DNA of 29,692 nucleotides from a virus: the IMG/VR virus record IMGVR_UViG_3300044742_000179, positions 1-29,692 of that record. One strand, 5' to 3'. Each line of letters opens with the position of its first letter. The first letter of the stretch is position 1. The translations under genes were made by a program, and so were the position numbers. This document shows positions 10,670-19,326 of the stretch, piece after piece. The notes under the pieces were generated by a model that worked only from the letters and a program-made list of their open reading frames with translations, did no database searches and had not been told where the DNA came from.

Positions 10670-11422
10670 ATGAAGAAGCTATTGCTGGCGGTTACGATGA
10701 TGGCTGCGTTTGCCAGCGGCGCGAAGGCTGAGATTCTTGGCGGTCTCAATTGGGACGCGTCGGGTGCTACCCTATTGCAGTTGGTGCCAACGGTGCCAAC
10801 CGGCAATCAGGTGCAGAACCTTCCCTGCATTATCTGCGGAGCGAATCAGCCGCAGCAGCCGACAGGGTTCGGTTACAATCTGTTCGGGAATACCGGCAAC
10901 GCGGACACGGTGGCGTTCTTCTCCACCTCTATCGCCGGTCAACCGCAGACTGGTTTGGCCCTTGACACGTTCGGCGGCCTCTTGAGTGGCTACTCTATCG
11001 GTGACGGCAGCATCTTCCAGAATGCCCTGCTCGGCAGCCTGGGATTTTCTGTCGGTATCGACGTCAACGACACCAACGTCGCGCAGACGCTGGAGTCGTT
11101 CTGGTTCCTGAACTACACGCAGCAGACTGTGCTGGCCGTGTATTCGCCGGGACCGGGTGGCACGTTGCTTCCGGACATCAACAACGGAACGGGATTTCCT
11201 GATTGGACTCTTACAGGCTTCGACCTGACGGGGATCAATATCGGGGATCGGATCGGCTTCTACGCTCGCATCACCGGTGCGAACGATGGGCCGGATTCGT
11301 TCTTCATCCAGCCGTTCGCGGTGCCGGGTCCGGCTGTCGGCGCAGGACTTCCTGCGTTGGTGATGGCTTTGGCCGGGATGTTTGGGTTCAACCGACTGCG
11401 TCGTCGTCGTCTCGCTGCGTAA
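10670..11422 (+). CDS. Secreted protein with a PEP-CTERM-like C-terminal sorting tail
   Basis: 250 aa. A signal peptide (MKKLLLAVTMMAAFASGAKA, likely cut after Ala20) is followed by a Gly/Asn/Thr-rich beta-type ectodomain with one C-x-x-C pair (PCIICGA). The C-terminus is tripartite: a VPGPAVGAGLP motif, a hydrophobic segment (LVMALAGMFGF) and an RRRRLAA basic end. This is the layout of PEP-CTERM/VPxPA sorting signals handled by exosortase systems, and the VPGP-x-x-G-A-G-L-P form is one I associate with Bradyrhizobium proteins. It begins a new unit after the terminator, with AGGAG upstream. The ectodomain is not recognised; a role in altering the infected cell surface is speculation. Confidence 0.8.
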   Translation: MKKLLLAVTMMAAFASGAKAEILGGLNWDASGATLLQLVPTVPTGNQVQNLPCIICGANQPQQPTGFGYNLFGNTGNADTVAFFSTSIAGQPQTGLALDTFGGLLSGYSIGDGSIFQNALLGSLGFSVGIDVNDTNVAQTLESFWFLNYTQQTVLAVYSPGPGGTLLPDINNGTGFPDWTLTGFDLTGINIGDRIGFYARITGANDGPDSFFIQPFAVPGPAVGAGLPALVMALAGMFGFNRLRRRRLAA

Positions 11423-11605
11423 ATGCGCAAGCGGCCTTTACTTACTAAGGCCGAGAAAAAAGAACGCCAGCGCATCCTTCAGGTGCGCTGGCGCAAACGT
11501 AATCCTGACTATCAACGGGAATGGCAAGTTGCGAACCGCGAATATGTCAAGCTGATGAAGCGCAAGTACCGGGCGAGGAAGGAGAAAGAAAAATGTGGGT
11601 TCTAA
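11423..11605 (+). CDS. Small, highly basic protein
   Basis: 60 aa, starting on the base after the previous stop. It is dominated by Arg and Lys (MRKRPLLTKAEKKERQRIL, VRWRKRNPDYQREW, LMKRKYRARKEKEK) and likely helical. The R-x-R-x-x-N-x-x-Y-x-x-x-W/Y spacing resembles short basic segments found in phage DNA-binding or HNH-associated proteins, but no HNH or zinc motif is present. Nucleic-acid binding is plausible from charge only. Its end overlaps the next start by 13 nt. Confidence 0.6.
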   Translation: MRKRPLLTKAEKKERQRILQVRWRKRNPDYQREWQVANREYVKLMKRKYRARKEKEKCGF

Positions 11606-11874
11606 TCATTCTGCTGTTCACCACTGCAGGCGCTTACGGGCAAGCCTGGACTCCTCCGTTCTGCGTTGGTGCCAACATGGCGCTTCAATACAATCAGCAA
11701 GGCTGGCAATGCGTGAAGATCGTGGGCGAACAGGGTCCGGCCGGTCCGGCCGGTCCTCCGGGTCCTGCCGGTGGCGCACTTCCTGCCGCTCCGCCTCCGA
11801 CGCAGTGCATCACGTCGAATTGGGATGGCAAGCAATGGGTCTGCGTGCCGACGGAATATTTGACATCGAAGTGA
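11593..11874 (+). CDS. Secreted collagen-like small protein
   Basis: 93 aa. A short signal sequence (MWVLIILLFTTAGAYGQA) is followed by a Cys-containing segment (PPFCVGANMAL, GWQCVKIV), a collagen-like run of five Gly-x-y triplets (GPAGPAGPPGPAG), a Pro-rich linker and a second Cys-containing segment (QCITSNWDGKQWVCVP). The two flanking parts are alike (C-x(n)-W-x-C-V), suggesting a duplicated small domain joined by the collagen-like rod. Start ATG is behind GGAGAAAG; a longer reading from 11521 overlaps the preceding gene without such a site. Collagen-like stretches are common in phage surface proteins; export across the host membrane is the unusual part here. Confidence 0.7.
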   Translation: MWVLIILLFTTAGAYGQAWTPPFCVGANMALQYNQQGWQCVKIVGEQGPAGPAGPPGPAGGALPAAPPPTQCITSNWDGKQWVCVPTEYLTSK

Positions 11875-15799: not shown

Positions 15800-16270
15800 A
15801 TGATGCTAGAACTGTACCGTAACCGAGTGCGTAAGATTGATCGCAGGACCACTGCGAAAGTTTTCAAGCAACTGAGGATCAAGCAATGGAAGACTGGAAG
15901 GGACGCGTTGTTCAACACGCTAGACGAGTACGACTACGATCAAGCCGATCTGGTGCTGTGTCTGCTGCAGATCAACACGCCGAGAACGGTGCAGCACGCA
16001 GAGATGTTGATCGGCCATCCCATAGAACATTGCCCGCCAGCGTTCAAGTGGAAGCCGCTGCCCCAAAGCATCCTGGACAGAAGGATCATAGACGAAAGGC
16101 GGGTGGTCAGCGTGCAGCAGGATCCACGGCACAAAAGCGGAAGACCCACATGGTTGCGGCGGTATCATCTATTCAAGATCGGGCTGTCAGTCGCCCAACT
16201 GCTACGCCGAGGCGTCACGGCAAACGATCTTCGGCTCGTAACAAAACGCGGATGGGTTCAGCTCGCGTGA
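15800..16270 (+). CDS. Uncharacterised basic protein
   Basis: 156 aa, beginning MMLELYRNRVRKIDRRTTAK. It is rich in Arg and Lys with an acidic patch (LDEYDYDQADLVLCLLQ) and a C-terminal segment that looks like a helix-turn-helix tail (YHLFKIGLSVAQLLRRGVTA, NDLRLVTKRGWVQLA). The last part, S-V-A-Q-L-L-R-R-G-V-T-x-x-D-L-R-x-x-x-K-R-G, may bind DNA. It leads a short + strand unit with a zinc-ribbon protein and a nuclease, suggesting a DNA-related role. Weak GGAGC lies upstream of the start. No family is recognised. Confidence 0.65.
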   Translation: MMLELYRNRVRKIDRRTTAKVFKQLRIKQWKTGRDALFNTLDEYDYDQADLVLCLLQINTPRTVQHAEMLIGHPIEHCPPAFKWKPLPQSILDRRIIDERRVVSVQQDPRHKSGRPTWLRRYHLFKIGLSVAQLLRRGVTANDLRLVTKRGWVQLA

Positions 16271-16413
16271 GGGGTGGAGCCAGCCATCCTTGTCCGCAGT
16301 GCGGTGCTGTGACGCGGGTGCTGCGGACTACGAAGATAGATATGACCGTGCAGCGGCACCGACAATGCCTGCGCTGTCACCACGAATATCACACAACTGA
16401 AGAACAGCAATGA
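16252..16413 (+). CDS. Small zinc-ribbon protein, NrdR/Ogr-like layout
   Basis: 53 aa from ATG 16252, or 48 aa from the GTG at 16267 that overlaps the previous stop; the GTG fits the coupling style of this genome. Cys14/Cys17 (PCPQCGA) and Cys39/Cys42 (QCLRCHHEY) with the segment VLRTTKIDMTVQRHRQCLRC match the zinc ribbon seen in NrdR N-termini and in many small phage proteins. It probably binds nucleic acid. The stop overlaps the nuclease ATG (ATGA). Confidence 0.72.
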   Translation: MGSARVRGGASHPCPQCGAVTRVLRTTKIDMTVQRHRQCLRCHHEYHTTEEQQ

Positions 16414-16802
16414 GCACGGACGGTGGGCTGCGGAAGACATTCCGCAGCCGACTGCCCATGGTTCATTGGACGACGATAGAGACGGGGATTGTGGAGCGCG
16501 GCGTGCCCGATATGCACGGGACTTGGAAGGGATCCAGTTTCTGGATCGAGAATAAGCGCGCTCGGGGTTTGGAAATCAGTTTACGTCCGGCTCAAATTGG
16601 ATGGCTCCTGCGGAACGCGCGCAATGGCGGAAGAGCGTTCGTTGCAGTGCGAAAGAAAGATGTCCTTTGGATTTTCCACGGTCGCGATGCGCGGATGCTG
16701 GCACGCGATGGCCTGCGGTGTGGCCGGGTGGCCGGTCAGTGGCCGGGTGGCGCTGCAGGGTGGCCATGGCCGGTCATACTGAGGCTTTTGGCCACCGGCT
16801 AG
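16410..16802 (+). CDS. PD-(D/E)XK-type endonuclease (VRR-NUC-like)
   Basis: 130 aa. The segment GVPDMHGTWKGSSFWIENKR provides the PD-(D/E)XK core: Asp34, then Glu47-x-Lys49. It is followed by LRPAQIGWLLRNARNGGRAF, matching the R-P-x-Q-x-x-W-x-x-x-x-x-x-G-G motif of VRR-NUC and Holliday-resolvase-like phage nucleases, and a final strand (VAVRKKDVLWIFHG). Such enzymes cut branched or replicating DNA. Residues after about 104 (CGRVAGQWPGGAAGW) are encoded by the start of the downstream GGGTGGCC-rich tract and look like an extension gained from it rather than family sequence. Confidence 0.78.
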   Translation: MSTDGGLRKTFRSRLPMVHWTTIETGIVERGVPDMHGTWKGSSFWIENKRARGLEISLRPAQIGWLLRNARNGGRAFVAVRKKDVLWIFHGRDARMLARDGLRCGRVAGQWPGGAAGWPWPVILRLLATG

Positions 16803-17090
16803 GCGACCCAGCGCGACCCGCCCATGCGCTGCCGGGGTGGCCCCTTGGCCACCCTACCGGGCGGTCTTTTTTAAGCCCTGCAGGGTGGCCCCTGCCAGCC
16901 CTGCCCCATGGCGGGGCCACAGGCGACCCAGCGCGACCCGCCCATGCGTTTTAGGCGGAAGCCTATGGGGTGGTATAGGCCAGCCCTTTTTAAGCCCCTT
17001 GCCGGGTCGCCCGGCCCCCCCAGCCGGGGTGGGCGGGGTGGCCCCCCAGCCGGGGTGGCCGGGTGGCCGGGGTGGCCCCTGCCGGGTGGT
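16715..17090 (+). repeat. GGGTGGCC-rich low-complexity tract with G-runs
   Basis: Variants of GTGGCCGGGTGGCC recur through this tract. At 17026-17086 seven runs of three or four G occur (17026-17029, 17031-17033, 17035-17038, 17052-17055, 17061-17063, 17069-17072, 17084-17086), giving quadruplex potential on the + strand and marked strand asymmetry. A perfect hairpin lies at 16835-16854 (GGGTGGCC, loop CCTT, GGCCACCC). Its left end overlaps the nuclease 3' end. From 16803 to 17175 no convincing gene is seen. Confidence 0.75.
16801..16997 (+). repeat. Two tandem units with identical ends and different hairpin cores
   Basis: A 28-nt box is identical at 16801-16828 and 16921-16948. In each unit it is followed by exactly 38 nt of different sequence and then a T-run plus AAGCCC (16867-16878 and 16987-16997). 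The unit-1 core contains the stem GGGTGGCC/GGCCACCC (16835-16854). The unit-2 core contains GCCTAT/ATAGGC (16961-16966 and 16975-16980) and an alternative AGGC-GGAA-GCCT hairpin (16953-16964). A hairpin followed by a T-run suggests each could act as a + strand terminator for the nuclease operon. Confidence 0.75.
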
Positions 17091-17100
17091 CCGCTTGCGT

Positions 17101-17175: not shown

Positions 17176-17364
17176 ATGCACTTGATAGAAGTCTGGTATG
17201 TGTTCAACGGCTGTGAAGTCAAGGCACATTATTTTCTGATTGCTGATGACATCACGCTTGCGCAGGGCAAGCGGCAAGCCGGACAGATGGCCCGCAAGAT
17301 GAAAGGGTTCAAGGGAAAAAAGCTGAACTACAACGTGATTAAAAATTTCACGTTTGTGCTCTAG
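17176..17364 (+). CDS. Small hypothetical protein
   Basis: 62 aa behind AAAGGA, beginning MHLIEVWYVFNGCEVKAHYF and ending NYNVIKNFTFVL. It is basic in the second half (GKRQAGQMARKMKGFKGKKL). It has its own ribosome binding site and sits alone between the repeat tract and a strong terminator, so it is probably a single-gene unit. A perfect TTGACA at 17156-17161 is too close to the start to serve as a normal -35. No family is recognised. Confidence 0.65.
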   Translation: MHLIEVWYVFNGCEVKAHYFLIADDITLAQGKRQAGQMARKMKGFKGKKLNYNVIKNFTFVL

Positions 17365-17385
17365 CCCAAATCCAAGACAAATAAA

Positions 17386-17415
17386 AAGGGGACCCAGCGC
17401 AAGCCGGGTCCCCTT
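17386..17415. terminator. Bidirectional terminator between convergent units
   Basis: AAGGGGACCC (17386-17395) pairs with GGGTCCCCTT (17406-17415), a perfect 10-bp stem with a 10-nt loop. On the + strand it is followed by TTTGATTT-like sequence; on the - strand by TTTTTATTTG, a better T-run. It lies between the + gene ending at 17364 and the - operon ending at 17420, and probably stops both. Confidence 0.85.
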
Positions 17416-17419
17416 TGAT

Positions 17420-18007
17420 TTAGTCCATCCTGGAAACTTCAAACGTACGATCTTCCTGGATGATCGCCACCCAAGAATGCTCATACAGAACAATCAGCTC
17501 CTTCCGCAGTTTGGTTTGTGCCAGCGGCCGGAGCGGAGGCTCTTCGCCGCCGGAATCGCCGTAAGAGTACTGCAGAACATTGTCCTTTGACAGACGCCAG
17601 CCCTTCATCGGCCGCCATCCGCCACCGTGCGCATAGCGTTCATTGAACTGTTCGCGCGCCGGACGCGGATCAGTCGGGTCCAGAAACTCCGGCACCTCAC
17701 CGAACACATCAGGACCGACATCGGGGTGCAGCAGTTGCACGATGATGGCTTTTTCCTCGACCTCCAGCATGGTTGCAAAAGTTTTTTCCATGAGGGCGCC
17801 GAATTTCTGCGGCGTCATGCGCGAGGTGTCCTTCAGTATTTCTGCCAGCAGTTGGGACATCTCACATATGATCGACGCCACGCACGTTGCCGGTGGGAGC
17901 TCAGCCATCTCATAAAGATCAAAAGCGTCACTGACCCAGACCCGCAGTTTGCGGTTGAGTTGGTTTCGCAAGTCTTTATCCATTTGCGTTTGCGCTTGCG
18001 TTTTCAT
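17420..18007 (-). CDS. Uncharacterised protein ending the long - strand operon
   Basis: 195 aa. The N-terminal half is helical (MKTQAQTQMDKDLRNQLNRK, VASIICEMSQLLAEILKD, GALMEKTFATMLEVEEKA). The C-terminal half contains PDVFGEVPEFLDPTDPRPAR, a GGGWRPMKGWRLSKDNVLQY stretch and a final beta strand region. No catalytic motif is recognised. The ATG overlaps the stop of the transglutaminase-like gene (ATGA), and the gene ends at a bidirectional terminator. Translation coupling suggests related function with its upstream neighbour, but this is not shown. Confidence 0.7.
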   Translation of the reverse strand: MKTQAQTQMDKDLRNQLNRKLRVWVSDAFDLYEMAELPPATCVASIICEMSQLLAEILKDTSRMTPQKFGALMEKTFATMLEVEEKAIIVQLLHPDVGPDVFGEVPEFLDPTDPRPAREQFNERYAHGGGWRPMKGWRLSKDNVLQYSYGDSGGEEPPLRPLAQTKLRKELIVLYEHSWVAIIQEDRTFEVSRMD

Positions 18008-18941: not shown

Positions 18942-19175
18942 TTACTTCCGTTTGGTTGTCCCGGTCTGCTGACCGAGCGCGTTGTAGAACGTGGTGCCGG
19001 TGGAGTTGGTAACAGCCCGACCCGTTTGCTGGCCGAGTGAATTGTAGAACGTGGTGCCGGTGGATGTGGTCGTGGAACGCCCAACGACTTGTCCGTTGGC
19101 ATTGCGGTACGTTTCACCCCAAGCCATCGCCTGAGTTGACAAGGTCAGCAGAATTAAAACGATAACGGTTTTCAT
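18942..19175 (-). CDS. Secreted small protein with tandem Gly/Thr repeats
   Basis: 77 aa from ATG 19175, preceded by AAGGACG; a longer reading from 19235 lacks a site. A signal peptide (MKTVIVLILLTLSTQAMA) is followed by three related repeats: YRNANGQVVGRS, FYNSLGQQTGRA and FYNALGQQTGTT, separated by T-x-S-T-G-T-T. The last two are nearly identical at the DNA level. The motif Y/F-x-N/D-x-x-G-Q/R-x-x-G-R/T is a short beta-hairpin repeat that also occurs in bacterial periplasmic proteins. It is probably exported to the periplasm; the role is unknown. It lies downstream of a structured leader. Confidence 0.72.
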   Translation of the reverse strand: MKTVIVLILLTLSTQAMAWGETYRNANGQVVGRSTTTSTGTTFYNSLGQQTGRAVTNSTGTTFYNALGQQTGTTKRK

Positions 19176-19326
19176 GATGGTCGTCCTTCTGTTTTTGAAT
19201 TGGGGTGCGGCGGTCGATGGCCTTGAACGGCACACAACACCTGCCGACCGAAAGGACCGCAGGCCATCTTTCTAAACACCGATTCCGCCGCTAACCGATG
19301 ATGACTAACCTCTCGGTCGGAGCAGA
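19176..19326 (-). promoter_or_regulatory. Structured leader/intergenic RNA candidate upstream of the secreted repeat gene
   Basis: 151 nt without a gene. CCGACCGAAAGG (19244-19255) is complementary in 11 of 12 positions to CCTCTCGGTCGG (19309-19320). GATGGCCT (19216-19223) is complementary to AGGCCATC (19261-19268), and GCGGTC (19210-19215) to GACCGC (19255-19260). The pairings overlap, so at least two exclusive folds are possible on the - strand transcript that continues into the secreted-protein gene. This could be a cis-regulatory RNA or a processing site. No T-run follows, so it is not a standard terminator. Confidence 0.5.

Follow-up and report, generated by a model that had tools for sequence, protein, structure and literature searches.

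A probable tandem duplication of a nuclease gene end and its predicted terminator in a tailed phage

Why would two neighbouring units in a phage genome have identical ends and unrelated, structured centres? We ask this question for the virus record IMGVR_UViG_3300044742_000179, whose whole stretch of 29,692 nucleotides (29.7 kb, the window) was analysed. The record belongs to a tailed phage. It carries genes for a tail sheath, a tail tape-measure-like protein, DNA polymerase A and thymidylate synthase. Genes on the + strand run from about 15.8 to 17.36 kb and genes on the - strand from 29.6 down to 17.42 kb, so that the two sets converge on a strong terminator hairpin (17385–17416). The units lie just before this point, in a gap of 373 bp. 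A nuclease-like gene of 130 aa precedes the gap and a reading frame of 62 aa (17176–17364) follows it; G+C makes up about 72% of the sequence there, and GGGTGGCC words abound. The + strand holds eight of these words between 16726 and 17077. Reading frames that span the tract were rejected as genes, since their lengths shift in a second contig (L002, see below) through a 26-bp indel.

The outline of the two units is as the earlier note described it (Table 1). The 28-nt box is present in two exact copies. No third copy with up to three mismatches was found in the whole window, and the number of box matches expected in shuffled sequence is zero. Each box is followed by exactly 38 nt (the core), and each core by a T-run and AAGCCC (six Ts at 16867–16872, five at 16987–16991). 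The far ends of the units are thus in register at 119 and not at 120. The cores are indeed unrelated: a gapless comparison gives 12 identities in 38 positions, against a mean of 11.5 for random pairs of 38-mers from the tract. A simple alignment of the two cores returned only GGGGTGG and scattered words, which does not exceed what the tract as a whole leads one to expect. Inversion of a core in place, judged by eye, was rejected as well; being palindromic, the hairpins can be matched both ways round, but the matches do not keep the register.

The boxes turn out to be parts of something larger, which the earlier note did not see. They belong to two abutting copies of about 120 nt (A and B), followed by the diverged start of a third. 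Outside the boxes, GCSCTGCAGGGTGGCC recurs at 16750 and 16875, and GGCCAC at 16790 and 16915. The blocks can be read directly from the letters in head-to-tail order, at lags of 125, 120 and 119, and the copies meet at 16875–16878. Randomised controls rarely or never reach this likeness: one in 1000 is as good as the match between the blocks before box 1 and box 2, and none in 1000 equals the similarity after the T-runs (16868–16916 versus 16987–17029). The tract also holds a 26-nt exact repeat, longer than the longest repeat in 2000 simulations (19 nt). Between the conserved blocks lie segments that are unrelated in sequence yet equally long in both copies (24 and 38 nt). In the 24-nt segments only 7 of 24 letters are common to A and B. 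Both are nevertheless predicted to form a hairpin, and the two hairpins lie at a tree distance of 4 (P ~0.01 versus shuffled centres). The likeness in hairpin shape is weak, because it does not reach significance by base-pair distance (P 0.12).

Table 1. Positions of the repeat blocks, cores, T-runs and neighbouring features in the window.
Feature	Position	Strand	Description
Nuclease gene, 130 aa	16410–16802	+	VRR-NUC-like / Holliday-junction-resolvase-like; PHROG 2165 (1.2e-13), 93, 5702
Tandem copy A	16750–16878	+	GCGCTGCAGGGTGGCC / 24-nt variable / GGCCAC / CGGCT / box / 38-nt core / TTTTTTAAGCCC
28-nt box, copy 1	16801–16828	+	AGCGC-(11 nt)-GCGCT fold, using the next 2 nt
Core 1	16829–16866	+	Terminator-like GC-rich hairpin ending 1–2 nt from the T-run; -24.9 kcal/mol
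T6 + AAGCCC, unit 1	16867–16878	+	
Tandem copy B	16875–16997	+	GCCCTGCAGGGTGGCC / 24-nt variable / GGCCAC / box / 38-nt core / TTTTTAAGCCC
Hairpin GTGGCCCC...GGGGCCAC, copy B	16883–16920	+	Counterpart in copy A at 16758–16795, with a different inner stem
28-nt box, copy 2	16921–16948	+	AGCGC-(11 nt)-GCGUU fold; one G-C to G-U change
Core 2	16949–16986	+	UAGGC-GGAA-GCCUA, then GGG.UGGU-AUAG-GCCA.CCC abutting the T-run; -18.0 kcal/mol; pair probabilities 0.84–0.97
T5 + AAGCCC, unit 2	16987–16997	+	
Diverged start of third copy (GCCCCTTGCCGGGTCGCC...)	16994–17030	+	Equalled by none of 1000 randomised controls
GC-rich GGGTGGCC tandem tract	17016–17093	+	Site of all differences from L002/L010; adjoins unit 2
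Bidirectional terminator hairpin	17385–17416	.	14-pair stem + T-run, where + and - genes converge

The position of copy A points to where the repeat came from. The 3' end of the nuclease gene lies within this copy, and its stop codon TAG (16800–16802) overlaps the box by 2 nt. We infer the name VRR-NUC for the gene, with no Pfam match behind it. Its product shares a C-terminal GGxxxWxW..I motif with distant homologues in three other contigs: GGAAGWPWPVI aligns with GGPARWDWDTI (L004), GGPSNWNWVRI (L016) and GGPENWDWEKI (L018), the last two lined up by eye. Part of this motif is encoded by GCAGGGTGGCCATGGCCG. Because this coding stretch carries a motif common to distant homologues, the repeat probably came from the gene end: going by these alignments, the gene sequence is likely the original, from which the intergenic block was copied. 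Downstream of the nuclease gene, neither a repeat tract nor a T-run of at least five was present in any of the three relatives read (L004/L017, L016, L018), and two of the three (L016 and L018) have a small gene directly 3' of it.

What the copies carry besides the gene end is suggested by how they fold. The stem GGGTGGCC/GGCCACCC that had been proposed for the first core is right (P ~0.99). For the second core, AGGC-GGAA-GCCT holds, but GCCTAT/ATAGGC is predicted to form only rarely (P 0.004); its place as second stem is taken by GGG.UGGU-AUAG-GCCA.CCC, directly 5' of the T-run (P 0.93–0.97). Both cores fold better than expected on the strand of the gene (z -2.76 for core 1 and -2.85 for core 2; 3 of 200 shuffles as good in each case). 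Their predicted hairpins end 0–2 nt from their own T-runs, which is the structure of an intrinsic terminator, a GC-rich hairpin 0–2 nt from a U run. We ranked all hairpins beside a T-run of at least five, 40 sites in the window. The hairpin of unit 1 (-26.3 kcal/mol, 1 nt from U6) comes first; that of unit 2 (-10.9 kcal/mol, a G-G mismatch, 0 nt from U5) comes about tenth. Since unit 1 is the best of 40 sites and both cores beat 197 of 200 shuffles on the gene strand, we read the units as two predicted intrinsic terminators, of which unit 1 would be strong and unit 2 moderate. Counting against this reading, the tract as a whole is GC-rich and hairpin-prone, and its 60-nt windows differ little from the background after shuffling (mean z -0.55 versus -0.38). 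The folding of whole units is unexceptional (z -1.07 and -0.06).

In the explanation that we consider probable, the 3' end of the nuclease gene was duplicated in tandem together with its 3'-UTR and its intrinsic terminator. We favour it because the blocks recur in order, the box shares letters with the stop codon and the motif in the upstream block is found in homologues. It is a simpler origin than those put forward in the earlier note, which overlooked it. An RNA polymerase leaving the nuclease gene would first transcribe the box, which would form a 5-bp hairpin with an 11-nt C-rich loop. It would then meet the GC-rich hairpin beside the U-run and stop near position 16872; any read-through transcripts would reach the second, weaker terminator at about 16991. 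The duplication itself may have arisen by slippage or unequal recombination in the GGGTGGCC-rich DNA. The identity of the boxes may have been kept by constraint or by recent gene conversion, and the hairpin cores, which would need only to fold, may have diverged or been rewritten.

Duplication followed by divergence is not enough by itself. An identity of 28 in 28 beside 12 in 38 is insufficiently explained by this simple history. The sole odd feature of the tract is how sharply identical blocks give way to centres that are unrelated, equal in length and able to fold. It could result from constraint on the blocks, from recent conversion of the boxes or from template switching at the hairpins.

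Among the contigs searched, the box occurs in just one other, L002/L010, which is essentially the same virus. Its units are unchanged: both cores recur there, in the order seen here. Over 15.1 kb it differs by four substitutions (17017, 17022, 17033, 17048) and the 26-bp indel, all of which fall in the GC-rich tandem tract at 17016–17068 and its counterpart in L002/L010. These differences could reflect real copy-number variation in a hypervariable repeat, or an effect of assembly. Exact and relaxed box patterns returned nothing related beyond L002/L010 from viral and bacterial collections; the relaxed patterns allowed any core of 25–55 nt in bacterial genomes and 22–52 nt in viral contigs. A match in a Polaromonas MAG was dismissed as chance, its agreement being limited to the letters of the pattern and three adjoining bases. 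Matches to plasmid DNA were short, GC-rich and likewise due to chance. Among annotated phages no homologue was found by DNA or by nuclease protein, and a relative with 43% identity (L011) had no match to the tract or the nuclease. The suggestion that the units are a cassette that exchanges its core thus finds no support in these searches: no genome with another core was found, and L002/L010, which is so near-identical that it makes a weak test, has the same cores. The tract is a real, lineage-specific tandem duplication with terminator-like hairpins, ordinary in kind.

Alternatively, the units could encode two phage small RNAs or processed 3'-UTR RNAs, in which the C-rich loop of the box hairpin (GACCCGCCCAU) would act as a seed, followed by a variable centre and an own terminator. 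Both units do have a constant 5' part and a terminator-like 3' part, unit 2 retains the box hairpin despite the G-C to G-U change, and the cores outperform their shuffles as given above. However, a scan for sigma-70-like promoters, the one promoter type covered, found no site; Rfam gave no match in the window at the gathering threshold and none near threshold within the units; folding of whole units is at a z of about -1 and 0; and the searches found no divergent relative. We therefore regard small RNAs as unlikely. From the earlier proposal of two related small RNAs, each with its own terminator, the terminators stand as a prediction and the independent RNAs find no support.

A second alternative is a chance mosaic. 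The GGGTGGCC-rich tract may be in flux through slippage and template switching at quasi-palindromes, the box pair being only the youngest duplication and the terminators incidental; we think this improbable. In its favour, the tract holds the eight GGGTGGCC words, the adjacent tract carries all differences between two otherwise identical contigs, and z-scores of 38-mers across the tract are ordinary on average. Template switching is also reported to create and maintain RNA hairpins (PMC8794818). Yet the 26-nt repeat lies beyond every simulation, the order and register of the blocks are kept around variable segments of exactly 24 and 38 nt, and unit 1 is the best terminator in the window.

It is less likely still that the conserved blocks are DNA binding sites, operator-like or iteron-like. 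GCGACCC occurs twice per box at 10-bp spacing, the pair is repeated 120 bp on, and an inverted GGGTCGC follows at 17004. In this way 5 of the 10 GCGACCC/GGGTCGC words of the window fall within 208 bp, beside the point where the genes change strand and not far from the maximum of the cumulative GC skew. But 4 of the 5 words come from one duplicated box, which leaves two or three independent words, a GC-skew peak is expected from convergent transcription, and the box is found nowhere else in the window nor, L002/L010 apart, in the contigs searched. Finally, there is only a very slight chance that the tract is a modular repeat in which stem bases, box and U-run are kept and the 24- and 38-nt hairpin centres undergo active rewriting, for instance through template switches between inverted repeats, into a phage RNA family with constant ends and variable structured centres.

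Tandem intrinsic (rho-independent) terminators are a known arrangement at the ends of genes. The duplicated gene end resembles them in having a GC-rich hairpin beside a U-run, placed some 65 nt past the stop codon on the coding strand and repeated once. It differs in that its two hairpins have different sequences within common flanking DNA, and termination here is predicted. Small RNAs derived from 3'-UTRs and ending in an intrinsic terminator are a known class in bacteria. The first unit likewise comes immediately after a stop codon and has a hairpin followed by a predicted terminator; unlike that class, the phage units are predicted from sequence and belong to no conserved family. The tract also shares features with variable tandem repeats and with quasi-palindrome template-switch mutation (PMC8794818, PMC8604942): the DNA is hairpin-rich, short blocks are copied, and the tract adjoining the units differs between near-identical genomes. 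In contrast to these systems, block inversion of the cores does not fit the register, and the ancestral state is lacking here.

If the terminator reading is true, the phage shows how copying a gene end can supply a tandem terminator, some blocks staying constant while the stems drift. If instead blocks are maintained and centres rewritten, the tract would be a small natural system in which to study how RNA hairpins are created and replaced.

Several minor observations concern other parts of the window. The convergent-gene terminator (17373–17422) scores 34 bits against Rfam BjrC68, a Bradyrhizobiaceae sRNA with a cut-off of 39; the match covers mainly the terminator hairpin and gives a hint of a host in the Bradyrhizobiaceae. 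Immediately 5' of the nuclease gene, 16269–16413 shows a weak NrdR-like zinc-ribbon match (PF22811, below cut-off), in a frame that is an alternative to the 15800–16270 reading frame. A 250-aa protein (10670–11422) has a signal-like stretch at its N-terminus and, at its C-terminus, a VPGPAVGAGLPALVMALAGMFGFNRLRRRRLAA tail, which looks like a PEP-CTERM-type sorting signal and would be unusual in a phage; an NCBIfam search returned no match for this protein. A short reading frame at 11521–11874 contains a collagen-like GPAGPAGPPGPAG stretch. On the - strand, at 18942–19235, an imperfect tandem repeat of about 60 nt lies within a small secreted-looking protein (GRSTTTSTGTTFYNSLGQQTGRAVTNSTGTTFYNALGQQTG).
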